A stretch of DNA of 64,000 nt, taken from Neckera pumila. Taxonomy: Eukaryota > Streptophyta > Bryopsida > Hypnales > Neckeraceae. Shown here piece after piece: positions 20,380-45,668 of the stretch. Within the stretch, counting starts at the first letter, position 1, and the number at the start of each line of letters is the position of its first letter. The position numbers and the translations under genes are program-made. The notes below the pieces were generated by a model. It was not told the DNA's origin. It searched no databases and saw only the letters and a program-made list of their open reading frames with translations. Location: positions 6,448,001 through 6,512,000 of the forward strand of contig OZ018415.1 of the NCBI GenBank assembly GCA_963969595.1, given 5' to 3'.

Positions 20380-20625
20380 ATCCTATAATTTATCCACTCT
20401 TTCTCCAACAATATTTTTGCCCATATGAGCCAAAAAAGATAAATTTTGGCTCATAAAAAAAATGACGGAACTCCAATCTTCCCAAGTTACATACTTGCAC
20501 TTCTTTGCCTACTGAAAACAACGTGCTTGATGCCTCTTTGTTGAAAGTGGCTTCTTCATCTTCACACATGATCGCAATCCTTGCCTCTGAAGGCTCCTTC
20601 TATAGTGTCATCACTCAATTGCATG
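20380..20625 (-). pseudogene. Tc1/mariner-like transposase relic, C-terminal part
   Basis: Continues the relic at 31916-32231 across the MULE. Joining the two flanks at the target-site duplication gives an unbroken frame ending EGAFRGKDCDHV before a stop. Further left, in a shifted frame, it reads STKRHQARC, then WEDWSSVIF, then EPKFIFFGSYGQKYCW, which is the second catalytic-Asp region of Tc1-like transposases. Stops and frameshifts make it clearly dead. Confidence 0.75.
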
Positions 20626-20635
20626 CCCTCAGACC
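20626..20635 (+). repeat. 10-bp target-site duplication, left
   Basis: CCCTCAGACC directly precedes the MULE and is repeated exactly at 31906-31915. Confidence 0.9.
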
Positions 20636-20745
20636 CGGGGATGCTAGTATGTGAGCCTATGAGCATGAGCCTGTGAGCGTATGAGCCTATGAGCCTGTGA
20701 GCCTTCAATTTTTTTTTGGAAATTTAGGATTTGTAAATTTGTTAA
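20636..20745 (+). repeat. MULE terminal inverted repeat, left
   Basis: Starts CGGGGATGCTAGTATG and continues with alternating TATGAGCCT and GTGAGCCT sub-repeats. It aligns with the complement of 31797-31905. Confidence 0.75.
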
Positions 20746-21337
20746 AGATCTATGACTGTGGAATTATATGAAAGGATCTACAATCCAAATGAACAACAAA
20801 TGAATATGCCACTATGTGATTTTGTACCAAAAATTGATCTATAGGCCTTCATGTAAATTTAAAGAATGAAAATGGTCCACCTATTTTATTTTATTTTTTA
20901 TAACTATGCTTTAAAATTTTAAAAATATCTTGAACATGTAATACATAAAATAAACATAATAGTCATATTTTATATACCAAATGAATGTGTAAATCCCAAA
21001 TGACCTAAACCACTATTTTTCTAGTATGATGCCCTTTTGGGGGGAACTACTTTTAATTGATTACATAATTAATCTAGTGGTAGTAGTTTCATTGAATTCC
21101 AAGTTAAATTCAACTTCCTAAAATTTCATAGAGTTTAGTGGTGGAGTATAAATCAAGGCTCATAAAGTATTGGCAATTTAGGCACAAGATGAAGTTTTAG
21201 GGCAGCAAATGGGATTCGAATTGCTACACTGCTACATCATTGCTATGTTCAAATTGCAAATTGCTACATCATGTATAGGCAAATTCAATTTGAAAAACAA
21301 GACAATAGGAATAAAATATCAAATTATGAAAATAAAC

Positions 21338-24300
21338 TTAGATTTCGTCTGACTCAGATGCACTGAGTTCAAAATAAGAACATACTCTAGAATCATAAGA
21401 TCTACGAGGAGATTGAGAAATTGAAGATGAATAAGATGAATCATTAGCATAAGCTAATGCTAAATCTTCAGCATAAACAGGGAGGCCACGAGGACTAAAA
21501 GAGGGACTTCTAAAAAATCCAGAGTGTTGATAAAAAGGCAAGGTTTGCCTTGGCAATGGAGTCATCCGACTGCAAACAATAAACCATATATCAAAAATGG
21601 AGTAACAAATTAAAATACAAGGTATAGAATTTATAATTGAAGTTGTTGAAAAAGAATAATATAAGTAGAATAATATAAGAATTTACTTACATAAGTCAAG
21701 TAGTGCAACGTCTTCAATTGGAGAGTCATCATCAATGTCCATACCATCATGTGTGGTAATAGAATCTAGATTTTTGGAGATGGTTATAGGTGTTTTTAGA
21801 GGCTTCAGTACCTCATCAAAGAGTTTGATATCACTTTCTAGTGCAAGGATATGGCGATTAGAAGAATGTGCCGCTTTAATAGAAGAACCTGAGTGAAACA
21901 CAATATATGAATTATGAAACATCAAAATTGAAGAATAGAATTAAAAATCAAACAAAAAATAGAGAAAGAAGTAAGTCAATATTGTAGATTACAATACCTG
22001 TAGAGGCAGTCATGTCTGTTACAATGCCACCTACAGGACTCAAGCCATGAACAAAAAGCTTCATTAGAACCCCAGACTTTTCTTTTGCACCCCTCCATGG
22101 CTTGCCATCTTCCTTTCTACATAATTGACTTGCTATAGTAACAGAATTGAAGAGGACGTCGTTTGTGGCTAAATCAACTTCAGGAATAGAAGGATCATTA
22201 GTAATCACAAACTCCCGAGGCTGCCTTGTAATGGGAGAAGCAAATGATCGAACCAACAATAAAGCCTTGAACTTCATAGTCTAGAATGAAAATCAAATGA
22301 AATTAGAAAGTGCGCATAAAATCAAAGGAAATACAATAAAAAATGAATCAATGACAAAAATGAAAGTTTGAAATTGCAACTTACTTTTTTAGTTGGATTC
22401 ATAGAATTAGCCAAGTGCAAATAGTTAATGATAGTCCACTCATCCTTGACCTTCAACTTGTAGTTTTTAAAGAATCCTGCCACTTCTCTCTTCACCGTCA
22501 AACTATCAGGATAAAATAGAAGGAATGCTCCATCATCATGAAGATAGGTGAGACAAAATGCCATCATTATTTGGAGAAAACTTGGAATGTTGGCATTCCA
22601 GTGGGGAATTTGAGATGGTGGATTTGAAACCCTTGGAACTGGAAAACCATCTGGATAATCCGCAATGATGAGATCCACTGCAGGTTTCTTTTGAATTTTG
22701 CCATCAAAAAAGAACTTCTTGCCTTCACCAACCTACAAAGACAAATTTATAGAATGTTAATTTATAATTGAAGATGTTAAAGGCACAAAACATTATGAAT
22801 TCGAAGAGATGGATTTTGTAGAACATGTAAGATTTTATAACAATGAAACATGAAATAGCAAAGAAAACCAATAAAAAGAATGAACTCACCTTTGATAGAA
22901 AAGATACAATGTCGTCATATGGCGCGCCAAATGTACCAATCTTCTTTTTCTCCTCGATAATTCTAACAAAAGAATCATTTAAGATCAACTCCAAAGATGT
23001 ACGAGGGGACGACAAAGGAGCCAAAGTACCCATCATACCTTTAAGTTGGGGAGGAAGCTCAAAGATAGGAGAAGAAGTTGGCACCAAAACCACAGGAGTA
23101 GAAATAGTTTTTTGTCGCTTTGAAGGGGGGAGGGTAGCCTCAACATTTGAAGAAGAAGGTCCAGTAACAAGAAGGTCCTTGAGACTATCTTCAACTGACA
23201 CATCTTCATTGGAATCATCAAGATGAACTACTTCTTTCTTTGGCTTAGCCTTTGTCTTTCTTGTTTTCTTGGTTGCATCCTTATCCATCGTTGTAACTAC
23301 GATTGTACCTTTGAGTGCAGGTTCAATGGAATCTTGAAGGGCAATGTCAAAAGTGGGAGGTCTTTTGAGAGGACAATCCAAATACCACCCACACCTTTCC
23401 CAATGCAAGGGATCCTAAGAACTCATGATCCCCTCTGTGAACATGCAATCTTCACTTTCTTTGTCCAAGTAATTTGCAAAGAAAGCAGGAGATTTGGAAA
23501 TGGCTTTAGCAGGAAAAAGAACATACTTGAAGTATCTGTAAAGCACCCTTTGCATAGCTGGTTTGAAATTCAGTTGTTTATCAATCTTATGGTTTTTGTG
23601 GATCCCCTTATCCACATCAAATTCACGGAAAAATGCAGCATCCCACAACAATATGCGCATTGACTCCACATAATCAAAGATTGTGGGCAAAGGATCCATA
23701 CCATCTGGAAGATAGTTAATAGACACTCCCATATCAGCTACTGTGGCATCAAATAGCTTTTCTGTTTCAACAGCCAACTGTAACATACAAAATATAGATT
23801 AGAAGAATGTTATGATTGAACAAAAAGGTTTGAAGGAAGAATATGAAAAAAAAATAAGACTAGTACTCACCTGAGCTCACCATGTAGCTTTATGAAGCCA
23901 CTTGGGGAAGTCAATATCATTGAATTTTGACTTAGGAAATTTGAGCACTTCGCGAAGAGAAGGAGACTTGTTCCACCTCTCTAACCACTTGATCTTCATA
24001 GAAGTGTCCATTGCTGAAGTTGCTAGCATCCAAAGTTTCTCTTGAGTCATCTCTGGACTTTCATCGTGAGTTTCATAGTGAAACTTTACTTGCTCTAAGA
24101 AGGCAGTCGTGTGTTTTGGATCTGCAATCAGATGATGTTTCCTCAATTCAGAATGAGAAGCTATCTTGACCTTGTCAACAGCTTTAGACACCCATTCATG
24201 AACTGCAGATGGAGTCCAATCTGCTGGATTGGGATATTTCTCATAAAATTTCCTTTGAGCAGCTGCAGCAGACTCTCCCAACTCTTGCTGCATAAGATAA

Positions 24301-27089
24301 TTGATGTATAAAAATAAGAAAAATGACACACGATGACAAATGATATATACAATGATTCATAGGATATTAATTCAAATTAACAATAAGAACAAAAAGAAGA
24401 CATAAAAATTGAAAACAAAATATGAAGTGGCCAATAAAACTTTACCTGGTATAAGACTCCATTTAGAGCCTCAAGAGTGAGAGTGAACCATGTTCTTTGT
24501 TTTGACTTCTGCTTTGCTTCAGCTGCAACAAGATCATCTTTGGAGACAAGTTTTTCAAAATATGAGAGTGGTTGGCCAGCAATACTCTGAATGCAATAAA
24601 GTTTGTGAACAAGATTTATAGAAACATGGGATTTTTGGTTTCTCCTGGACAAACAAGATGTATTGTGTTAAAATTTGTGAAGTGAACATGAAAGAAAAAA
24701 AATATAGAATAACAATAATTCCAATGTTTCAAACCAAACAACCTTTAGTGACTAAGAAGTGAAATGAACCAAACTTTGATAAATAAAGAAAAGAGATTAC
24801 CAATTCACTTCATGTAATGCTGCCAACATAGTTGCAATATCTCCCTTAACCTCCAAAATAATACTTTCAACCTCGTAATGCCAGATGAAGTCATCTGCAT
24901 GATCGCGGTTGATTATAGGCAGTCATGCTCGCAGACAATGGTTGCCATCCCATACCATAAACATCTTGCTCGCAAAAACTTTGAGATCTTCATCATTCTC
25001 CAATTTTTTCTCAAATGCAGCATTGGCCCTCACCCAATTGGCACTCTAGGATTTAACAATATCATTCGTGACATCTACTGTCTTTCCTTCATTGTCCTCC
25101 AAGGCCACATAAAAAACTCCATTTCCTTCCATGTAACCGCAAGTAACAAAATGTGCAGCAAGGTTCATAACGTCATTCTTCAAAAAGGGCCTCACAATTG
25201 GTAAAGAAATCATACGACACAAAGGAATGTTGATTTTTGATTTTGCCTTTGGTTGATACCTCAACCGCTCAAGAAAAGAAGATGTGTTGACAATCTCTTT
25301 CTTCAAAAAGCCATGCAACTGTAACTCCAATTGATCCTCAGAAAGAGGCTGATGTACGACATCTAATCCCGGTGCGTCTGGATCTCTTTGTGTCATGATC
25401 TCTGTAATGACATAAAAAAAAAGATTAATATGTAATTTGACATAACAATTGTTAATTGTTGCAGCTTAGAAAGACTCCAAAAATTTAGCATTGAAGGAAA
25501 TCGTAATATACATAGCAAGCAAATTTATGTTCTAAAAGAGGCTGCCGTTAACGGCTGAGGTGTAGGATGCTAAAACATTTCAGCAATGAATCTGAAATTT
25601 GAACCGCGGTGGAAGAAATTCTACGTCCCGAAAAGGGCTACCGTTAACGGCTGGGGTGTAGGATGCTAAAACGTTTCAGCAATGAATCTGAAATCTGAAC
25701 TACAGTGGAAGAAATTCTACATCCTGAAAAGGGCTGCCGTTAACGGCTGGGGTGTAGAATGCTAAAAAATTTCAGCAATGAATCTGAAATCTGAACCGGA
25801 GGGAAAAAAATATTCTACGTCCTGAAAAAGGCTGCCGTTAACAGCTGGGGTGTGAGAAGGTGAAAAATTACTATGTGCGACCTAATTTCTAATGTGCAGA
25901 ATAGGAAAGTTTGACTCTCAAAAACGGCTGGGGTGTGAGAAGGTGAAAGAAACTGCGCCATTGGACGGAATCCTAGCATACACTATTCTAAATCGGAACC
26001 CAAAAATGCGCAGCCGTTAACGGCTGGGGTTTAGAAAGGCCAAGAAAAAAGCCACATACCTGGATTTCCTTCAATGCTTGCACTTGTCTCGTGATTTCTT
26101 CCTTGTCCATCTTGCCGCACAGATTCCGCTGTAGCCTCCACTGCAACCTCCGCTTCTTCCATGGTGATCGCTTCTTGTCCCTCCCTCGTTGATTGTTGCC
26201 TCGGCGCCTTCAAAGACGACGTTCAAAGACAACACAAGAGTTAGGGTGAAACTGGTCTCCAAAAAAAAAAAAAAAAAAAAAACAAGGAAGAGATTGGTAG
26301 ATATAGCTCAAGGGAATCTTGTAAATAACTTCTTCAATTTTTAAGATTTCAAGCCAAAATTTTTTATACCCATAGATTATACACGTCAAATTCACTCTAA
26401 TTTTTTTTCAGAATTTTAGGACACTTGAGCAAATTTAAAAAAATCAGCAAAAATTGCTAAAAATAAAAGTGCTGGATTTTGCCTAAAAATCATCAGAAAC
26501 TGAACATTTCAGGGAAGATTCTAAGATGCTAAATTAGTTTTTAGGGCATAAGATACTCAATATTTGTCCGTTTTTTACATGCTATATACCGTTGGAATCG
26601 GGCTTTCGACGCGCATGAAATGATGAAAAATTGCAAAATCTGCCTCTAAGAAAAAATTTCACATATATTCAAACTCAATATCACTTGGGATAATTATTTC
26701 CTTACCATTGTATTTGTGCTTCCTACCTCCTGCTCCAATTCTACTGTTGGGGCTATTTGTTGTTGTTGTTCTTCCTCCTCTTCTCCGTTAATATCTTGAT
26801 CCCAATCACTACAACTTGAGGCAATATCTGGTTGAGCTTCGCAAGAGACAGGTTCAACTTCCACGTTATCTTCTCCAATTGCTTCACATGAAACAATACC
26901 TTCATACGTCAAATTCCTTGTTGTGCCAGACATATCAACCGCACTAATTAGAGGCACCCGTCTAGTCATTCTAACCCTTAACAATTGCCTTCTACTTGAA
27001 TAATGAAAACTACTTTTCTTCCTCCTCTTCTTCCTACCTTGAACTGGAGTGTCCAACGCTAACAATGGAGAAAACAAATATCCTTGCAT
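21338..27089 (-). pseudogene. ParB-like / N4-N6 amino-methyltransferase fusion gene (10 exons, about 1233 codons, four stops)
   Basis: Exons in order: 27089-26706, 26207-26060, 25401-24801, 24644-24446, 24287-23871, 23777-22890, 22732-22385, 22280-21998, 21888-21687, 21569-21338; 3702 nt. All junctions are GT-AG and all phases fit if the exon 9 donor is the GTAAAT four bases after the stronger GTAAGT. Residues 1-128 are basic then acidic (GRKKRRKK, a nuclear signal). About 180-445 reads as a ParB/sulfiredoxin fold with WDGNH at 328-332. About 710-780 has further basic signals (KKTRKTKAKPKK, PPSKRQK). About 880-1130 is an amino-methyltransferase with a DLIIADYP catalytic block (about 904) before the SAM block DMTASTGSS (about 1084), the beta-class order. 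In-frame stops lie at 25046-25048, 24923-24925, 23877-23879 and 23415-23417. No indels seen. A domain search is needed to confirm both domains. Confidence 0.72.
25402..26059 (-). repeat. Intronic tandem repeat (about 100-bp unit) with 12-bp palindromes
   Basis: Fills most of the second intron of the ParB-methyltransferase gene. Units read GGCTGCCGTTAACGGCTGGG, then GTGTAGGATGCTAAAA, TTTCAGCAATGAATCTGAA and GAAATTCTACGTCC. The palindrome GCCGTTAACGGC or a one-mismatch form lies at 25544-25555, 25640-25651, 25736-25747, 25834-25845 and 26013-26024, with a half-site near 25921-25930. Confidence 0.9.
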
Positions 27090-27767
27090 CTGAAATAATA
27101 AACTAGTAGGGCCTTACAATATCAGCATCCTCCAATCTTCCATACTACATCACCCACTTCTTGCAGCATGTGTTTCTACATACTGCTTCATTCCACTCTG
27201 CAACCTTTTATATTCTAAGGAACTTCAACAGCTATTCTCCACAAAATTGGAATTCAATTTTATAAGTAAGTGACGGCTTCATATGTCTGTTACTCATATT
27301 ATCATCAATGAAAAAAAACTTTACCTATCTAAAGATATGCAATTATCATTGCAAGTATGTCAGGGATCATGCAATATAAGGCATTTTGATCTATCGTCTC
27401 CTATCAGTGCCAGCTCTAATTCTACTAACATTGTCTGACAGAAAATGATACATTATCAATATTATAGTTCATTTATTATTTTTGATTTACTAATTGATAC
27501 TATGCAGTACGCCGCCTTACCCAACTTCATTTCAAATGTTGTTGATATATCTTCTTCTAGAGCAAATCTTGATATGATACGCAATAACAAGCATTGAAAT
27601 CATCAATCGAATTTCAAATTATACGGCATCCCTGATATATGTCCGTTCATTTCAAACAACCGTAGAAGCTTTCATTCTTCTTTATATTTGCACCCCTTGC
27701 ATTTGTAAACATCATTGCTTGCTTCCTAATACTGCAACTTCCTTGCAACTTTATGTAACACTTCAGT
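27090..27767. promoter_or_regulatory. Divergent intergenic region of the MULE
   Basis: A 678-bp AT-rich gap between the start codons of the two MULE genes, which must hold both promoters. I see no clear TATA pair or repeated operator. The role is inferred from position only. Confidence 0.45.
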
Positions 27768-30700
27768 ATGGCTACTATTGTTGCAAGAGGTCATGAAGTC
27801 CCATTTGTTTTACCATTAGGTAGTCAAGGTTTTGTACATGTGCCCGCCCATCTCCTTCATGTCCGCTTTGGGTTCTCCCCTTCTTCTATTGTCATAGAGA
27901 AAGAAGTCCAAGATGACTATGGCGTTGTTAAGGAATCAATCTTGCAATCAAAATGTAGTGATCAAGAAGGGTTCTACTGGCTTCTTTTTGCAGGGCGCTT
28001 CAGAGTTTATGGTCTCTCGTCTGAGCTTTTGCTAACTTCAACTGAAATACTGACACCCCTTCTTGATAATTCTAATGCTGAACTCCCACTTGTACGTCCA
28101 GTCAAAGTGGAATCTCTAGCTAGTGGATGGTCTGAGAATACAGTTATGTTCAATGTCAATGATATCAAACGCGAGTCTCTAGAACCAGTCATAGAGTTAT
28201 CCAGTGATTCTGAAGGCGAGACACCAATTCAAGTCTGTCAACCTTCTTCTTTAAATGTTGCTTTGCCACCTACTGTGAGTCATTTGTTCCTACTACCTTT
28301 CGTTCTTCCTTTAGTAGTCCCGCATCGTCCGGATTTTCTCGTTCTCCTCTTCCTCCCAATCATCATGATTCCCTAACTGTATTACAGTGTCTACGCAAAT
28401 TGTCTTCTATGCCTGGATCACGGAATGAACTTGCCCAAATTGATTTTGATGCCATTGAATATCAGAACGTCCAATTCCTCCCAGCTAGATTTGATGGCAA
28501 TGTTCTTTTTGAGCTATTGCCGTGTCGTGGATCCACATCTGGGTCTAGGGGCGTGGAGGGCATGGATAAACGGTATGATGGTCATGCATGGAGTCGCACT
28601 ATGACCTCTAACATCCATAATGACCTCGGTTTAAAGTTCAGAAAGTCGCATTGTGTTGGGCATTTGATTTGTGAGAATCCGAGATGTGACTATCGCACAC
28701 GAGCTTCAAAAAATTACGAAACTGAGTGGATTGGGACCACCAAACATCCTTTCAACATAGGCCAGATTCCTCTACTAGAGTCTACTGTGCTTTGTAAAGT
28801 TTGTAGACAACCTCCTACTTGTCTCAGTCTATGTAACTCGCGGATTTATTATGTACAGAGAACTGCATATTTGTCACGTGCAGCGATCCACTTGGGTGTT
28901 CATTCACATCCAGTTGCTGATGGCCAGTGTAGAGAGTCTCTCGAAGCAATCACCGGATTGATTGCTCACGAAGTGGCAACGACTCCAACTGCTAAAACTT
29001 CTGCCATTACCATAGTGGCAAGCAAGAAGTTCCTTGATACATTTCTGATTCACAATGGACCCAGACCAAAGGAGATGCTCCATGGCAATGCATTAGAGAA
29101 TGTCATGGATAAGTTCCAACTGCTTAGCACGCTGAATGTGCGGAATATGATATCTTCTTTTAGGAACAACAACAAAGGAGGTGGTGAGATTGATCGGATT
29201 CTTGACATGAAGGGACGTGCAAAAATGGAGTATATACATGATAGTGTATTTCCAGGACAAGGACAAGAGAAGGTCTATTTGTTCAAGATGCTTGTGGATG
29301 GACCTGGGAGCGGTGTTGATCTTGTACGACAGATGCAACCAAATGACGACCTTGGAAATTGCTTCATCATGTTTGACCATGTGAAGAGGGTGAAATTATG
29401 GACAACTATTGCTTGTCACGTCTATGACTCTACTTACTACAAAGTCATGACCATTACCGTCTGTGATATGCAGACTGAAGGCACCGAAGGTCAGATCATT
29501 TTTTGGCGTTGTCTGAATAAGGTCATGGCACAAAATGGGATGTCAAATCCAACCTTCAAGGGATTCATGTGCGATAGTGCTCAAGCCAACTTCAATGCAG
29601 TTCGCATTGTATATGGGTTGGGGAATCCATTCCTTCCAATGGTGGATCGTAAAAGGACTTGCTTGTTCCACTGGGCAACAAGCATGCACAAGCATACAGA
29701 GAAGCTCATTGCAAAAGAGTTCCAGAACCAACATATCCGACTGTACAGGCAATATAAGGATGCAACATCAATGTCCAAGGCGGACAAGATGTATCTAGAA
29801 ATTAGAGTGTGGTGGTATTCCTCCGGAGCTGCATCAGAACCAGCAATTTGTGAACTCGAGGATTGGTTGGCCTTTTGGCACTTTCGATATCGGCAGTGGG
29901 GTGGATTCATGGAAACGATATGATCTTCACTCTCATTCTTTTTTTCATATCTTTTTCTACATTTCAAACCAATCCAATAATGACTTCATTATCATCTTTG
30001 CAGAAACTGACAATTGAAGAACTAGTAGACATCCCAACGTGCAACCTTGCAAAAATAGTGCATAATAAATGGATGCAAGCTTCTGGCAAACGCGGGTGTG
30101 ATTTGTTTGTAGCCACTTGCGATGATTGGGTTCGAGCTTTTATACAAATGACAAATTATAGGGCTTATCTTTGCGGAGGCCCTTCTGGGAAGGGCCCCCT
30201 CTAAAGAAGATTTGAAACTGAAGAAAGCTATGGCATCTGGAGATGGGAAGAAAATTGCAGACGCTCTAAGTCAGATGCCTGAAGCGGAAGACATCTGCAC
30301 CCGAATTCCGCATTTGGAGGGAGAAGAGGTATTTGGGTCCGGCAAAAGAAAACTGGATCTTCCAATCGGTTCTGAAGGTGATTTTCATCGCCCTGACAAA
30401 GTGAACTTTTTCCATCCTCGAGTTCAAATTAAATCAGCCGTTGCTAGTGTACAAAGCGGGGCTGAAAGTAAGGAATTTAATACAGTCATGCCCCATACCC
30501 AATCTGTGGTGGAAACAGATTGTAATACATCGGAGTGGCACATAGCGAGAATTTCACACAAGTCAAGGAAGCAGTGTCATGCCATTCAGAAGTACACACA
30601 AGCCAAATGCAAGCTACTAACTGATAGACATGGTAAACCTACTGCTGCTCCTACTTACAAAGGACAAAAGTGTGAATATAAGGGCACAGCTATTTAGACC

Positions 30701-31387
30701 GAGGATTTCTGGTTTTGTGCAGATCAAATTGCACGATGTGTCATGGGACCTAAACGTTCTCATGTTCTTATACGACCCGAGATTCCTAACGTCTGGCCTA
30801 TTCTTACTGGTACCAATCTTACTCGTACTGAAATCATAGAGTTGGAAGAAGCTGGATTTCACCTGCAATCTAGTGTGCCAATGTCACCTCAACGTCTATT
30901 CACCTCATCTAGGGTATTTGAGCCTATGCTCTGGACTCATCCTCGACCAGCACATGCTGAAAGAATCCCTTCCATTCGAAATGGCAAGCAAGTTCGACGG
31001 AGTAGTAAGGCGCCCACTGAAAATCATCGCAATCAGTGGGAAAGTGCAAGGAATGTTACTGCAAGTATTACTGGTGTAAACTTCCTTCCTTATCCTGGAC
31101 TTGGTGCTATTATTACGCTTTCTTCTGGGATTGAACCTAATCAGAAGGTTTACAGCATTACTCTCTACAATTTTCCATCTTGTACTTGTCCCCATTATGG
31201 AAGTATGAATGGGATGTCCATTGGAAAGCGTGGCATGTATGTTAACTGCAAACATCTTTATTATGTCTTTCGCTATTTGTACAAATTGGATTATAAGATA
31301 AATCCATTCATCCACGCTCCTACCCTCAGCTTGGACGAAGTTAAACAAGTGCTTATTACAGCCGGAATCATCAAGACATACAAGTGA
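27768..31387 (+). pseudogene. MULE transposase (WRKY-GCM1-like finger, DDE core, SWIM finger), 3 exons, degraded
   Basis: Exons 27768-28274, 28388-29917 and 30004-31387; about 1140 codons once whole. Exon 2 has a CxxxxC/CxxC/HxH cluster (CENPRC, CKVC, HSHP) typical of WRKY-GCM1 fingers, then the MULE core: HVYDSTYYKV (first Asp), FMCDSAQANFNAV (second Asp), CLFHWATSMHKH and a Glu-rich helix near EDWLAFWH. Exon 3 ends with a SWIM finger (CTCP...NCKH) at about 31170-31260. Lesions: the exon 2 donor reads ATATGA where GTATGA is expected (29918); about 2 nt are missing from a CT run near 30199-30203; TAG at 30695-30697. The exon 2-to-3 phase fits only if the mutated donor is used. It would have catalysed cut-and-paste of this element. 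Confidence 0.85.
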
Positions 31388-31796
31388 CCAAGTTAATTGA
31401 CAGATATTAGCATGATATAAAATAGATATGTAGTACCAATATATTATCTTCAAAATCTCCAAATTTGAGTAGCAAAATATTATATTTATATTCCAATATG
31501 TATTCTTTGCTGCAATGAAAGAATATTTTATTATGTACACAGTGTTCCACGTCCTATGATATTTTCATTGCATTTATCTTCTTCTCATCTTTGAAATTGC
31601 CTCTAAATTATATATACTCTCACTTAATTAGTCCACCCTTGGACGGCCTCTCTAAATGTAATATAAATTCCAAAACATGCAATAACGCCAACTTCCCAGG
31701 CTTTTAGATATAAAACCCACGGTCATAGGTCTAGTGGTAATAGGGCATCTTTTCTAAATATAAGAAACAAAATCAATCTTTTTACATTTTAACCAA
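31388..31796. other. MULE 3' region
   Basis: Non-coding DNA between the transposase stop and the right inverted repeat. Nothing recognisable. Confidence 0.5.
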
Positions 31797-31905
31797 ATAA
31801 ATTTACAAATTACATCAAGTTTTCTATTTTCAGGCTCTAGGCTCACACAATCCCCACTCACCGCTCTCAGGCTCACGTTCACATGCTCACATGCTAGCGT
31901 TGTTG
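31797..31905 (-). repeat. MULE terminal inverted repeat, right
   Basis: The complement of the left repeat, diverged. It ends ACATGCTAGCGTTGTTG before the duplication. Confidence 0.75.
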
Positions 31906-31915
31906 CCCTCAGACC
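31906..31915 (+). repeat. 10-bp target-site duplication, right
   Basis: CCCTCAGACC, identical to 20626-20635. Confidence 0.9.
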
Positions 31916-32231
31916 TTAAGCCTCTTTCTCTTGCAATAGCTATACTGGTATGTTGATCATTTAACCTCCTTATAATGTCTTGCTCGCCACATTCATTAAG
32001 AATTCTAGGTTTGTTAGGTGCAGCTCTATCTCTCAGACTCCTTCTCTCACCAAACCTTTGCACTATGTTACTGCAAGTGCTTTGGGGAATGTCCCAAATT
32101 GCTACATATTTGCTATATGAATTGTCTCGCCCATACATCAAAAACTGCCCTTTGCTTACTTTAAGATCTCCTAGGAGCCATAGCAAATCACTAGAAACTT
32201 CTCTCAAATACCAAAATTCTTTGTAGTACAA
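31916..32231 (-). pseudogene. Tc1/mariner-like transposase relic, N-terminal part
   Basis: A helix-turn-helix stretch reads IPQSTCSNIVQRFGERRSL followed by PNKPRILNECGEQDIIRRL, the paired-like DNA-binding region of Tc1 transposases. The frame runs straight into the MULE target-site duplication (GLRSEG) and resumes at 20625. The element is old and truncated. No terminal repeats of its own were identified. Confidence 0.75.
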
Positions 32232-32370
32232 AAAAGCTTCAAAACAACACTTGCATTGAAAAGATAGTGTTGTTCACAACTTGCGTGCATCAAAAGTTGT
32301 ACTCACTACTTTAAGATATTTCAATATGTAGGTTTAACAAGTGGCTAATTTTGAGGGAAACAATCTTAAT

Positions 32371-40029: not shown

Positions 40030-43000
40030 ATGGGGAAGGCGGTGAAGAGCGTGAAGAAGTTCGCGCAGAAGCATTTAGGAGCCACGATAGCGCGGAGGCG
40101 GAAGCTGAAGCCCATGAACAATGCTCTTCGGAAGAAGAAAGCTGGACAGCTTATTGCTGATTACAAGGAGGATCAAGCTGTGGCTGAAAAGGGAAATTCG
40201 GTGAATGGAGGCGCTAGAAAGTTAAAGTACGTTGCTCATTGTTATTGATAATGCAGAATGGATACTGCTTCGTCTTCTTTGACTAGTTTTGAAGGAGCTT
40301 ATAATGGATGGCAGCTTACTCAACGCTGCTTGTAGTTGAGTTTATTGTTAGATGTTTTGTAGTCTCGTTCTGAGGTTTGACTTGGTGGTCACAGGAGAGT
40401 CCAGGATATGAGCGTTGATGAGTTGATGCAAGGAGATTTTCTTGAAGATTTGAGTGACAAGGATGAGAATGACGAAGATGAGGATGTTTCCGAAGATGAT
40501 GGACTTTCCGATGGGGTAATTATTTTCTCTTGGTGTTGATTGGGCATAAGGTTTTAGGCAAGTTATTGAGTTCCTATGAATGCTACTATTTTCATACCTA
40601 ATACACAATGGAGAGCCTTAGAATTTCCAGTACTTTTTGAGATACTGATTGTTGCGTACTGGATCTTCTCCAGGACGAGGAAGATGATGAAGATCTGAAC
40701 CAGGCAATTGCTGATCTTAAGGCTGAGATGGGTAAGACTTCTTCTTTCACTTCCAGAGTAGTCTTTTGTTGGATGGTTAACGTGCTGATGAGCGCCTCGG
40801 CTTACCTTTTACCGTATTGAAATGTATCCACCGTCTTGTAAATCTTACGGTGAAATGCTTATTATTTGTTGTTGGCTAAATTGATAGATGAGGATGATTA
40901 CGAGGATGACGACGGAGATGAAGATGGTGACGAAGGAGGCACAGGATTGGGTTCACAAAACAAAGTTCTGAAGTCTGAAGTTTCGAAGCACAAGCAACAA
41001 CTTGAACACCTGCAGCAAAAAGTTTGATTTCTTTCGCCTTAGTTTTTCTTCAGATCTGGCATATTATAACAGTCTTCACATTTTTCCAATCATTCCATTA
41101 GTTGCATATGAATTATAGAAGCTTTTAAAGATTCTTGATCTGAAATGTTGAGTTTGGGTGAAATTTGATTTCAGGATCCAGAATTTTATCAGTTCTTGAA
41201 AGAGCATGACAAGGAACTACTGGACTTTGATGATGAAGATGCGGAGGTATGCGTCTGTTTCTCGTTTGCTTTGCGTAACTTTCTGACTCGACAGGTTGAG
41301 TCGGCGTTTCGCTGTTCATGTTCATTCAGTATCAATTGTAGGGATGTGATCCTGGCTTCGGTGGTTTGACCTTCTTGATATTACTTTAACTGAAAAATTT
41401 GAGGAAGATGTTGTCTCATGGTAATTTTAACTGAACCAGATTGATTCCAAATTTCTGTTGGCAAGAACAATTGGCAGTCGCTGTGGTCAGCAATTCAGTC
41501 AATGATTGTCATGCTTTATGTAGGAATCTGAAGAAGAGGATGGCGACGATAGAATGGACCAAGAATCTGGTGAAGAGGAGAAAACTATCGAGGATACATC
41601 TGTCAGTCTTACGACAGCTGTGGTGGAAACGTGGTGTGCTGCGGTCAAGGAAAAACAACATATTGGAGCTCTGAAAAACCTTCTGCGTGCTTTCCGAACA
41701 GCTTGTCATTATGGGGACGGAGAAATGGAGGACATGGGATCTAAATATAACATATCTAATAGTCATGTCTTCAACAAGATCATGCTTTATGTCCTTGTTG
41801 AAATAGATGGAGTTTTTAAGAAAATGCTTGGTCTGACGGATATGAGTGAGAAGAAAAGTGGTGCCGTGGAGGTTCAAAAATTATCCAAGTGGAAGAAGTT
41901 AGAGCCCTTTGTAAAAACATATTTAGGAAACGCCTTGCATATTCTAAATCAAATGACGGACAACCAGATGATTGCTTTTACTGTACGGCGATTGAAGGCT
42001 TCTGTTATTTTTTTGGCGGCATTTCCCATATTGGCGAGAAAGTACTTGAAGGTAATCCTTCTAATCATTCTTAAAGTGAAGGATATTGTAGGGTTTATTT
42101 TTTTGTAATGGAAGTGCAAAGTACTACATATTGTATAGTTTCTCGACCACTGATATGTTCTGGATCATATTCTGGAGCGGTCTAATCAAGCCAATGGTAT
42201 TCTAATGTTGACTTTCCTCTGCTTGTATGTACAGGTTTCATTGCACTTCTGGGGCAGTGGTGAAGGGGCCCTTCCATTATTGTCATTTATGTTCATTCGA
42301 GAGATGGCGTTGCGTTTAGGATCGGATTACTTGGAAGCCTGCCTTAAAGGGATGTACAAAGAGTATGTTGCAAATTCCAGATTTGTCAATCCAACCTCTC
42401 TTCCGAGAATACAGTTCATGGCAAGCTGTGTCGTAGAGCTTTATGGCATTGATTCAGCAGCAGCATATCAACATGCCTTCATCTTCATCCGGCAGTTAGC
42501 TATTGTCCTTCGCAATGCGCTTACTATGAAAACCAAGGTATGGTGCATATTTCTACATCTGTCCTTTCCTTTTTAACATGGTTATATATTTAGAACGGTG
42601 TTGATGACAGGCACAGAGCGACGGCCAAGCACATGACAGAATTTTGCTTAATAATGTACTTGTTTCCACATCATTGTTAGGTTGATTGGTTTATGATGAA
42701 TCGCCAAATATCTTTAAACTGGATTCTATTTTATATCAGATTGATGTACTCGTTTCTAGAGCGTGCTTACCATGTCTGAGATGGGTTGGTATTGAAGACG
42801 AACAGTGCTGTTGAATTCGTTTATGTTCTGATTTTGTGGTGACGACTGAATTGTGTTGAGAACCCTTGTTGCTGTGTGACAAATTCCTTGCTACTTTTGT
42901 GTTGCTATGGTTTTGAATGTCACTGCTGTTTCTGAAAAATGGGCTTTGGAGAGATTATGCAGGAAGCATTCAAGCAGGTGTATAGATGGCAATACATTAA

Positions 43001-45668
43001 TTCCTTGAATGTATGGGTGCGGGTGCTTTCGACCTATAAGGATCAGCTACGTCCACTAGTGTATCCGTTATCGCAGATCATTGATGGAGCAGCGCGATTG
43101 GTACCTACAGCCCGTTATTTTCCACTCCGTTTGCAGTGTGTTCGTATGCTCAACAGACTTTCAGTTGCCACCGATACATTTGTTCCAGTTGCATCTCTTC
43201 TGTTGGATATGCTACAATTTAAAGACTTGCACATGAGTCCTACTGGCGGGGTTGGAAATGGCCTTGATTTTTCAACCATGATAAAGGTACTAAATTCTTA
43301 GACTGCCATTTTCTGTGATTTCTTAATTCAATGAATCCCCATTTGTCTTTGTTTTGTAGTTTAACCTAATTTAGGCTAGTCTGATTGAAGGTACTTTTTT
43401 GGAATAATTTGGTAGGGCAGTGATGTGGGCGTTTTGAATTTGTTATGCACTCTCATTGCTGGAAGTGTCTCTTAACGGCGAAGTAGTATTTGAGAGTCAT
43501 ATGATGCAAAGTTTATTATACTTAAAATAATGATGCCATCTTTAATCGTCCGCAGTAAGATTTCAGCTGACTGTTAGTTTATTTCTGTGCTTTTGCAGGT
43601 ACCTAAGCAAGCTGTGAAGACACGTGCTTTTCAGGACGACTGTGTCACAGGAGTGATTCAACAGCTGACTGAGCATCTGGCTCAGAACAGTTACTCTGTA
43701 GCGTTTCCTGAGTTGTCTGTGGTTCCGCTAGTGCAGCTTCGGCGAATGTTGAAGGAGGTTAAAGTGGATAGGTTTCGCAAGCTCATGAAGCAGTTGGTGG
43801 ATCAGGTCAGTTCTGGAGCAAGGGCAGAATTTTAGGCATTGAAAAGCTTTGTGCACCGGACGTCTGGATGACCACAGCATACATGCTCTTTCACTTTACA
43901 GTATTAAGGATCAGGGCTTGTGAGTTTTTATGCTGTTGTTGTTACAAAGGAGCCTGTCAGAAGAGTGAATAAAATTATTTAGGGTCGAACTCTACTGTGG
44001 TCAATTGAATTGTGGTAATTTTTTCAGATTGAACGTAACGTTGAGTATGTGGGGAAGAAACGGGACGGTGTTTCGTTCTCTCCAAAGGACATTACGGCTG
44101 TGGCGTCGTTCCTAGAGGTCTGATACCGTCTACTTTGAGTGTTTATTATCGTATACATATCGGCACTTGAGGTATATGCATGACGTACATTATTCAATTC
44201 GTATTCCTTTTTCAATTTTGTTTATAATCGATATTGTCATCACTCACAAGAGTATGCTTGTTTTGTTCCAGGAGGAAAAGAAGGCAGGCGCAAGTCCATT
44301 GTCTAAGTTTGCAGTTTCTTTGCAGCAACGGGCTGCTCAGCGGCAGGCTGCCCTTCATACATCTAGGTCCGTTCTTTGAAGTCATGAATATTAATGGGCC
44401 GGCAAAAAATCTTGCACATTGCTTGGGTCCTTGTTATCTGCCGATTAATGATTTGCTGAGTCTGTTGGGGACTAAAGTGCCTATTTTTTCTTGTGTTTGC
44501 AGTGTGGTTGTTGAAGGAGATAATGAGCGGGTTGCAGATAGCGATGATGAAGAGGGTGACGAGATGGCAATCGAGGAGGGTGCCAAGGCATTCAGTAACG
44601 ACTGGTTACCTCCCAAGCAACCTCCTAAGCTAACCTCAGGGTGCGTCTCTAGTCTGCGGCCTCTTTGTGCATGAGTAACAGCTCTCGGAGTCTGAAGTTC
44701 TTTGAATCAAGGGATTGTTTATGCTTTTGTGTTAACTTGCCTACAAGAGATATATAACAGGCTTTATTATTAGGTCACGCTACTGCACACATGTATTTAA
44801 CCCAAAAGCGGTCGTTTCCATATCAGTAGGAGTTGAATTTAATCATTTAGCAAGCTTCAAAGTAGGTAACAAAATGTACAAGTAGAAAGAAGGAAGGACA
44901 GCCTACATTTTTGAACTGTTGAAGTATGTTTGAGACGTACTATAATTGACTATTAGCTTCCACAGTGGACTCTCTATTTTGAGTTTCGGCACTTAGGGGG
45001 CCAGTTAATCACTGAACCTCACATGCACCGTATCGGAATACTAATTTTTCGCCTTCTATTCCTTGTGCAGGGATCAACCTGATAAGAAAGCGATCAAGAA
45101 GGTCCAGGCGGTTACTCCAGTTGCAGGTGGTGATGACGATGAAGATGTTGTGGAAGATCTGATGCTCTCCTCATCAGATGACGAAGAGGACGAAATGGAC
45201 GAGGATGATGATGATGCTAAGTCAGTAGGGAGTGGCTCAGATATGGATTCTGACGCTAAAGAGCAGGAACCATCCGTGGCAAAGAAAGAGACCAAGTTCA
45301 GTGGACGTAAGGACTCCAAAGCGGTGGACTATGGAGGCGGGAGCACCAGGGGTGGAAGGGGCGATTCTTTGAGAGGTAATAGAGGAGGGTTTAAGAGTAG
45401 GGGTGGCCCAGCAGGGGGCAGTAGAGGAGGTTTTGGTGGTGGAAGAGGAGGTAATAGAGGAGGCAGAGGTGGATCCCCAGGTGGAAACAGAGGGAGAGGA
45501 GCTTCCCCAGGAGGTAACAGGGGAGGAGGGTTTATGAGCAGAGGTGGATCGCCAGGTGGATTCAGGGGAGGGAGAGGAGCTTCCCCAGGGGGAAACCGAG
45601 GAGGGTTTAAGAGCAGAGGCGGGTCAGCAGGGCGGAGTAGAGGAGGAAGTAGGGCTTGGCGAGAGTAG
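40030..45668 (+). CDS. NOC2: Nucleolar complex protein 2 (13 exons, 954 aa) with C-terminal RGG domain
   Basis: Noc2 partners Noc1 and Noc3 in 60S pre-ribosome maturation and export, in nucleolus and nucleoplasm. Exons: 40030-40226, 40395-40515, 40674-40731, 40888-41021, 41175-41246, 41524-42051, 42235-42537, 42963-43286, 43599-43805, 44028-44117, 44272-44366, 44503-44640, 45071-45668; 2865 nt, phases exact. It has a basic N-terminus (nucleolar signal), acidic stretches over exons 2-6, and the Noc2 HEAT-like core from about 195 to 700 (DPEFYQFLKEHD, LHFWGSGEGALPLLSFMF, QVYRWQYINSLNVWV). From about residue 842 the tail is RGG/GNRGG repeats, which I do not know from yeast or Arabidopsis Noc2 (about 710-764 aa). 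The ATG sits just after a telo-box promoter. It looks functional. Confidence 0.95.
45330..45665 (+). repeat. RGG-encoding minisatellite in NOC2 exon 13
   Basis: G/A-rich imperfect repeats encode about 112 residues dominated by RGG, GNRGG and SRGGS(P)GG. The complementary strand is open as a proline/leucine-rich frame, an artefact of composition. Confidence 0.9.

Follow-up and report, generated by a model that had tools for sequence, protein, structure and literature searches.

The window analysed here, a 64-kb stretch of Neckera pumila DNA, contains an 11.3-kb element, a DNA transposon that is complete though decayed; its two genes diverge, and both are broken. The best overall explanation, which we consider probable, is a dead two-gene transposon of the Mutator type (IS256/MULE clade), whose passenger gene would encode a self-recognising protein with a ParB fold and a methyltransferase-like (MTase-like) domain. 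The structure and class described below are put forward with good confidence. A self-recognition or anti-silencing role of the passenger, drawn by analogy, falls somewhat short of probable. The limits and ends of the element are:

20624..20635, no strand: left target-site duplication TGCCCTCAGACC, identical to the right copy
31904..31915, no strand: right target-site duplication TGCCCTCAGACC, identical to the left copy
20643..20679, plus strand: left terminal inverted repeat, 31/37 identical to the right one
31862..31898, minus strand: right terminal inverted repeat, 31/37 identical to the left one

The direct repeat of 12 identical bases at both flanks places the element at 20636-31903. When two 30-bp pieces of the window were drawn at random 20000 times, with overlapping draws skipped, only one pair shared a 12-mer. 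The inverted ends are imperfect, with a local score of 44 against a best of 27 among 500 random window pairs. Units resembling TGAGCCTA form an array at 20652-20704 that overlaps the left terminal inverted repeat. The TGTGAGCC unit shows no clear enrichment across the window (43 matches with at most one mismatch against an expectation of 34.8; 43 is reached in 7 of 100 shuffles). Joining the flanks in silico produces a minus-strand reading frame that crosses the junction, as is expected of an insertion into older sequence.

On the plus strand, the element carries the transposase gene:

27768..31384, plus strand: transposase gene, broken, in pieces, starting at the ATG at 27768
28391..28927, plus strand: GCM-like zinc-finger region, predicted fold, match to 1odh
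29363..29923, plus strand: RNase-H-fold DDE core, best fold match ISCth4
31181..31256, plus strand: SWIM-like CxC...CxH motif near the C-terminus, read from sequence, conserved in locus L013

The frame of the gene is broken twice and holds one in-frame stop, and the expected splice donor is not GT. Its one intron lies at approximately 29918-30003, a place conserved in L013, the sole related locus among the genome contigs searched. In the viral contigs, no relative was found with the transposase or MTase sequence, nor with alignments A1 and A2. Within the DDE core, D388 is present in 49 of 50 members of the transposase family and D454 in all 50, the row of the window included. Searching with the transposase model in Foldseek revealed the ISCth4 transposase, which we take to belong to the IS256 family, as the top three matches, with 9-13% identity among the alignments listed. 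The remaining PDB rows, long alignments with an rmsd near 20 Å, were set aside as noise. The window transposase shares the predicted DDE fold of its best PDB match, ISCth4, and adds the GCM-like and SWIM-like fingers; we presume that the CxC...CxH stretch fits the definition of a SWIM motif.

The predicted IS256/MULE fold of the DDE transposase is that of Mutator-like (MULE) transposons, and the terminal inverted repeats (31/37) agree with this class, although some MULEs lack such repeats. None of the 50 family members matches the Pfam MULE, FAR1 or SWIM models at E≤0.1. At such a distance, a missing match to a sequence model does not exclude MULE membership. The duplication has 12 identical bases, of which one or more may be chance, against the 8-11 bp given for MULEs in the part of PMC6446971 drawn on here. 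The sequence-only reading had described a MULE at 20636-31905 with a 10-bp duplication, inverted ends and two divergent genes. Its clear ends hold, with the repeat of 12 bp and the right limit corrected as above. The inverted ends are confirmed, and so is the divergent pair, with the passenger at 26162-21338 on the minus strand and the transposase opposite. The assignment to MULEs is upheld by predicted fold and anatomy and gains nothing from sequence profiles.

The passenger gene has the following structure:

21338..26162, minus strand: passenger gene, 9 exons, 8 GT-AG introns, 1090 codons, 4 in-frame stops
26162-26060, 25401-24801, 24644-24446, minus strand: exons 1-3
24287-23871, 23777-22890, 22732-22385, minus strand: exons 4-6
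22280-21998, 21888-21687, 21569-21338, minus strand: exons 7-9
25517..26048, no strand: array of 96-bp direct repeats in intron 1, with 5 palindrome copies
24801..25240, minus strand: ParB/sulfiredoxin-fold domain with WDGNH, predicted fold (exon 2)
22890..23777, minus strand: exon 5, a conserved region and a basic/acidic linker, no known domain found
21687..22732, minus strand: methyltransferase-like domain (exons 6-8), DLIIADYPDGF at the motif IV position, then DMTASTGSS at the motif I position

The splice junctions were set manually so that the frame is maintained, and additional exons upstream are possible. The spliceosomal introns by themselves point to a eukaryotic host. A protein search with the whole product gave no match at E≤0.001 among 6662 candidates, probably because introns split the homologues into exon-sized open reading frames (ORFs). 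A query of exon 2 and part of exon 5 retrieved 77 proteins from 1033 candidates at E≤10, 75 of them at E≤0.001, in a database of ORFs only, where broken copies escape detection. Exon 2 is matched by 31 of the 77 and exon 5 by 46, with none matching both; the best homologues are 83% and 91% identical, respectively. Judged by these matches, the passenger family is widespread, and its exon-length open copies of 50-90% identity speak for selection. Pfam returned no family for the whole spliced passenger, and its best match to single ORFs (E 0.012) is unrelated; across 26 exon-5 ORFs it listed nine families with one member each, the best (0.0025) being a domain of unknown function. No NCBIfam family was found for either passenger domain, and PDB sequence searches had no match at E≤0.1.

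Three of the stops, two in exon 2 and one in the conserved portion of exon 5, lie at tryptophan positions of the family. At positions conserved in at least 90% of members (exon 2, exon 5 and the transposase exon), we notice 19 differences. A single C>T/G>A change explains ten of them, the opposite change 2 and a transversion 3, and the other 4 require more than one change. Decay through C-to-T change may be read from these counts and is only weakly tested by them. That passenger and transposase form one unit is suggested by the present copy and by analogy with algae.

The ParB/sulfiredoxin fold of exon 2 rests on a predicted model. Scores are moderate, the match lists are dominated by this one superfamily, and the match extends a few residues into exon 3. 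The WDGNH motif lies at 24938-24952; DGNH is present in 30 of the 77 homologues, and WDGNHR in 27 of 29 aligned exon-2 ORFs. Proteins of this superfamily have CTP/ATP binding or nuclease activity, and true ParB also has an HTH and binds parS. Sequence searches did not recover the fold: none of the 29 exon-2 members matches a Pfam or PHROGs model named ParB at E≤1, PHROGs lists only scattered unrelated families for the exon-2 ORFs, and a PDB sequence search with exon 2 found no ParB and nothing at E≤0.1.

In intron 1, next to this exon, copies of the palindrome GCCGTTAACGGC lie at 25544, 25640, 25736, 25834 and 26013, three of them exact and two with one mismatch. Elsewhere in the 64-kb window, GCCGTTAACGGC does not occur with two or fewer mismatches, and five copies were reached in none of 100 shuffles. 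ParB-type partition proteins usually target palindromes, and by this analogy the array is a candidate target of the passenger protein.

The METHYLTRANSFERASE-like domain of exons 6-8 contains DLIIADYPDGF and, approximately 180 residues on, DMTASTGSSIKAAHSSNRHILALESD. DLIIADYP is encoded at 22652-22675, and DMTASTGSS runs from 22016 down to 21881, spanning an intron. The order of motif IV before motif I was read by eye, and the C-terminal stretch weakly matches beta-class methyltransferases. Both motifs were found in 10 of 11 phage methylases, with a spacing of 132-365 residues, against 180 in the passenger.

Support for a methyltransferase comes from the C-terminal stretch of about 55-65 residues, which the DNA methyltransferase family phrog_3008 matches with E 0.0026. 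The sole other PHROGs family listed there, phrog_6952, is also a DNA methyltransferase (E 0.097). PF01555 reaches E 0.079 and 13.3 bits, under its cut-off of 26.7. An HMM of the 11 phage methylases scores 16.3 bits on this stretch, and its controls give 3.7 for the best shuffle (1000 shuffles, 626 scored), -1.5 for the reversed sequence and -2.2 for the remaining passenger. This HMM is not blind: two of its proteins were chosen from a tblastn listing (E 4 and 7) against the same stretch, and the others were found through one of those two. That phage tblastn search with the MTase piece listed 9 records, every one at E 3 to 9. NCBIfam and PDB sequence searches with the domain gave no match, and the motif IV half (exon 6) scores -1.1 bits with the phage-methylase HMM against 5.6 for its best shuffle.

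Both catalytic motifs are altered. DYPD replaces DPPY of the catalytic (D/N/S)PP(Y/F/W) motif, and DMTASTG(SS) replaces DPFxGxG of the SAM-binding FxGxG motif; the domain is thus called MTase-like and is not filed as an N6_N4 methylase. One other copy of the family is readable at motif IV, P0161, whose ORF enters exon 6 in a shifted frame and which may itself be decayed. Its residues are compatible with those of the window at 39 of 53 positions in exon 6, against 6 to 14 when slid. Motif IV has D followed by P in the canon; in P0161 the first place can be read as E, K, Q or a stop and the second as Y or H. The alteration is therefore not peculiar to the dead copy in the window.

These results bear on the sequence-only reading, which saw a ParB domain followed by an amino-methyltransferase that could write N6A or N4C marks and called for a profile search of the spliced passenger. 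The order WDGNH, DLIIADYP, DMTASTGSS is present as claimed. The ParB fold is supported by predicted structure and finds nothing in Pfam, PHROGs or PDB sequence searches. In the profile search of the spliced product, no ParB model appeared, and PF01555 stayed below its cut-off. Of the amino-methyltransferase, only the C-terminal stretch is matched, weakly; the motif IV half does not exceed its shuffles, and both catalytic motifs are altered. The writing of marks is doubtful for these same reasons, and DNA methylation is a weaker claim than first supposed.

Among the alternatives, a non-catalytic DNA-binding accessory protein survives best, as a tentative possibility well short of probable. Its ParB-fold and MTase-fold modules would bind DNA of the element or assemble the transposase complex. 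Other Mutator elements carry helper genes. The conserved scaffold alongside altered catalytic motifs, the palindrome array and the position of the passenger opposite the transposase fit such a protein, whereas it would not explain why the MTase-like domain is kept rather than lost, and no HTH was recognised beside the ParB fold (no dedicated search). Active self-marking, as put forward in the sequence-only reading, appears unlikely. The MTase-like domain, guided by the ParB fold, would methylate adenine or cytosine-N4 of its own DNA and time transposition or block silencing. This finds support in the C-terminal match, in the beta-class order and spacing, and in the same domain pair as described in the consulted part of PMC12477816. 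However, the substituted motifs IV and I weigh against it, and P0161 can encode neither the catalytic D nor the P that follows it. Because the motifs are altered, activity as a DNA methylase was rejected as the principal claim, and active N6A/N4C methylation by the passenger family as a whole is likewise improbable.

The closest known system comes from algae. In the part of PMC12477816 used here, Sola1-1_Ec32 of Ectocarpus (21.5 kb) encodes a 1104-aa protein with ParB-like and DNA methyltransferase domains opposite the transposase strand, and proteins of green and red algal transposons are cited with it. The same part predicts N4mC or N6mA for these proteins, proposes that they bind and epigenetically modify their own transposon, and states that the transposase gene of large families is often pseudogenised. 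Compared by description, the two systems share the opposite strand, the domain pair and the size (1104 aa against 1090 codons). They differ in the carrier, Sola1 of 21.5 kb there and a Mutator-type element of 11.3 kb with a 12-bp duplication here, and in catalysis, since methylation is predicted there and the catalytic motifs are altered here. As far as described features allow, the passenger agrees with the algal accessory proteins in strand, size and predicted ParB fold, and strict MTase membership fails.

This close agreement in domain pair, size and orientation means that the central idea of the sequence-only reading is already in print, in the algal account as excerpted. Its statement that it knew of no such cargo gives way for algal transposons and, as far as the literature searches reach, stands for a Mutator-type or land-plant case. 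Judged by titles and abstracts, no paper among those listed by searches of the open-access literature concerns a ParB-methyltransferase passenger in a MULE or a land plant, and only PMC12477816 is relevant. By term search, 'ParB' and 'methyltransferase' are absent from the main text of the plant-transposon gene-capture review PMC13317346. New are the Mutator-type carrier, the altered catalytic motifs and the five GCCGTTAACGGC palindromes in the first intron.

VANC proteins of VANDAL MULEs offer a second comparison. In the sections of PMC5735166 and PMC13317346 consulted, they share the Mutator-type element, the passenger gene and a short motif in tandem repeats within introns or non-coding parts of the element. 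They differ in that those sections do not describe VANC as a ParB or methyltransferase protein, and binding of the array by the passenger here is putative. Among phages, part of the DNA methylase of Mycobacterium phage Vincenzo matches the ParB-fold model (rank 15, E 0.15, prob 0.90), and this fold match suggests a ParB-methyltransferase fusion. By our own patterns, 9 of the 11 phage methylases have DPPY and 9 of 11 a DPF-type motif I, whereas the passenger has neither. It further differs from phage fusions in its introns and in the approximately 500 residues between its modules.

A Pack-MULE-style capture, in which the passenger is a host gene copy with no role in the element, is very improbable. 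Gene fragments are common in MULEs according to the portion of PMC13317346 used; however, the passenger gene extends from start to stop and its splice sites are usable, its exons are conserved across a diverse family, Pfam offers no match along its length, and the PMC12477816 extract places its domain pair on other transposon superfamilies. Chance resemblance of an unrelated gene with another fold, which the lack of a ParB sequence-profile match and the weak MTase matches would favour, is just as remote and was rejected, since one superfamily dominates the fold lists and two independent approaches yield a pair reported jointly in algal transposons (PMC12477816, in part).

We return to the preferred explanation, the dead Mutator-type transposon with a self-recognising passenger. 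The ParB-fold protein would recognise the palindromes arrayed in intron 1 of its own gene, perhaps also the ends of the element. The element and its relatives would be bound and then marked or shielded from host silencing, as with VANC. Methyl transfer would be one possible output; since motifs IV and I are altered, a SAM-fold module that is inactive or serves another purpose is at least as likely. We speculate further, with distinctly little confidence, on a parS-like system of Mutator-type elements, probably of land plants, in which a ParB-fold clamp, fused to a non-canonical and re-purposed SAM-methyltransferase module, would recognise the palindrome arrays of the passenger intron and insulate or mark the element against silencing. 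Such a system would be convergent with VANC and spread across several transposon superfamilies.

Given the altered catalytic motifs, it should not be taken for granted that proteins of this kind write 6mA or 4mC in eukaryotes. The palindrome array adjoining the ParB-fold gene provides a direct, testable target. With this element, the recently described small class of transposon accessory proteins with ParB-like and methyltransferase domains now reaches a Mutator-type element. That two or more transposon superfamilies carry a similar pair of modules is an argument that the pair does real work in the life of the transposon.

In the broken passenger gene of the Mutator-type element, which encodes a product with a predicted ParB fold and a methyltransferase-like domain, intron 1 contains a repeat array:

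25517-26048: array of 96-bp direct repeats, within intron 1 of the passenger gene

This array holds five GCCGTTAACGGC palindromes. In exon 5 of the same gene, the linker carries an acidic-hydrophobic stretch, VVHLDDSNED (window 23202-23231, minus strand), which is similar to a SUMO-interacting motif; its counterpart in the compared protein P0125 reads VVQLDDSDED. In P0161, a passenger homologue, KKSTPEA units are repeated in the linker region as an internal peptide expansion.

Both ends of the element contain short TGAGCC-type repeats (20652-20704 and 31840-31891), which are mutually inverted. Across the whole window, this type of unit showed no clear enrichment.

Joining the flanks 20400-20635 and 31916-32273 revealed a minus-strand reading frame that spans the empty site. 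Our impression is that this frame resembles a Tc1/mariner-type helix-turn-helix, and a Pfam scan of the minus-strand ORF of the right flank (31916-32273 side) gave no match at E<=0.01. Elsewhere in the window, we notice two further reading frames:

41524-42105, plus strand: reading frame
45045-45668, plus strand: reading frame

Our impression is that they are similar to a Noc2-like host gene and to a Gly/Arg-rich tail; the frame at 41524-42105 had no Pfam match at E<=0.01.

The locus L013, a relative of the element's transposase, comprises a transposase gene that looks eukaryotic and is interrupted by a GT-AG intron (L013:1-4101). Its contig, CADCWO010000080.1, is assigned to a cyanobacterial MAG and is probably a contamination of that reference genome.
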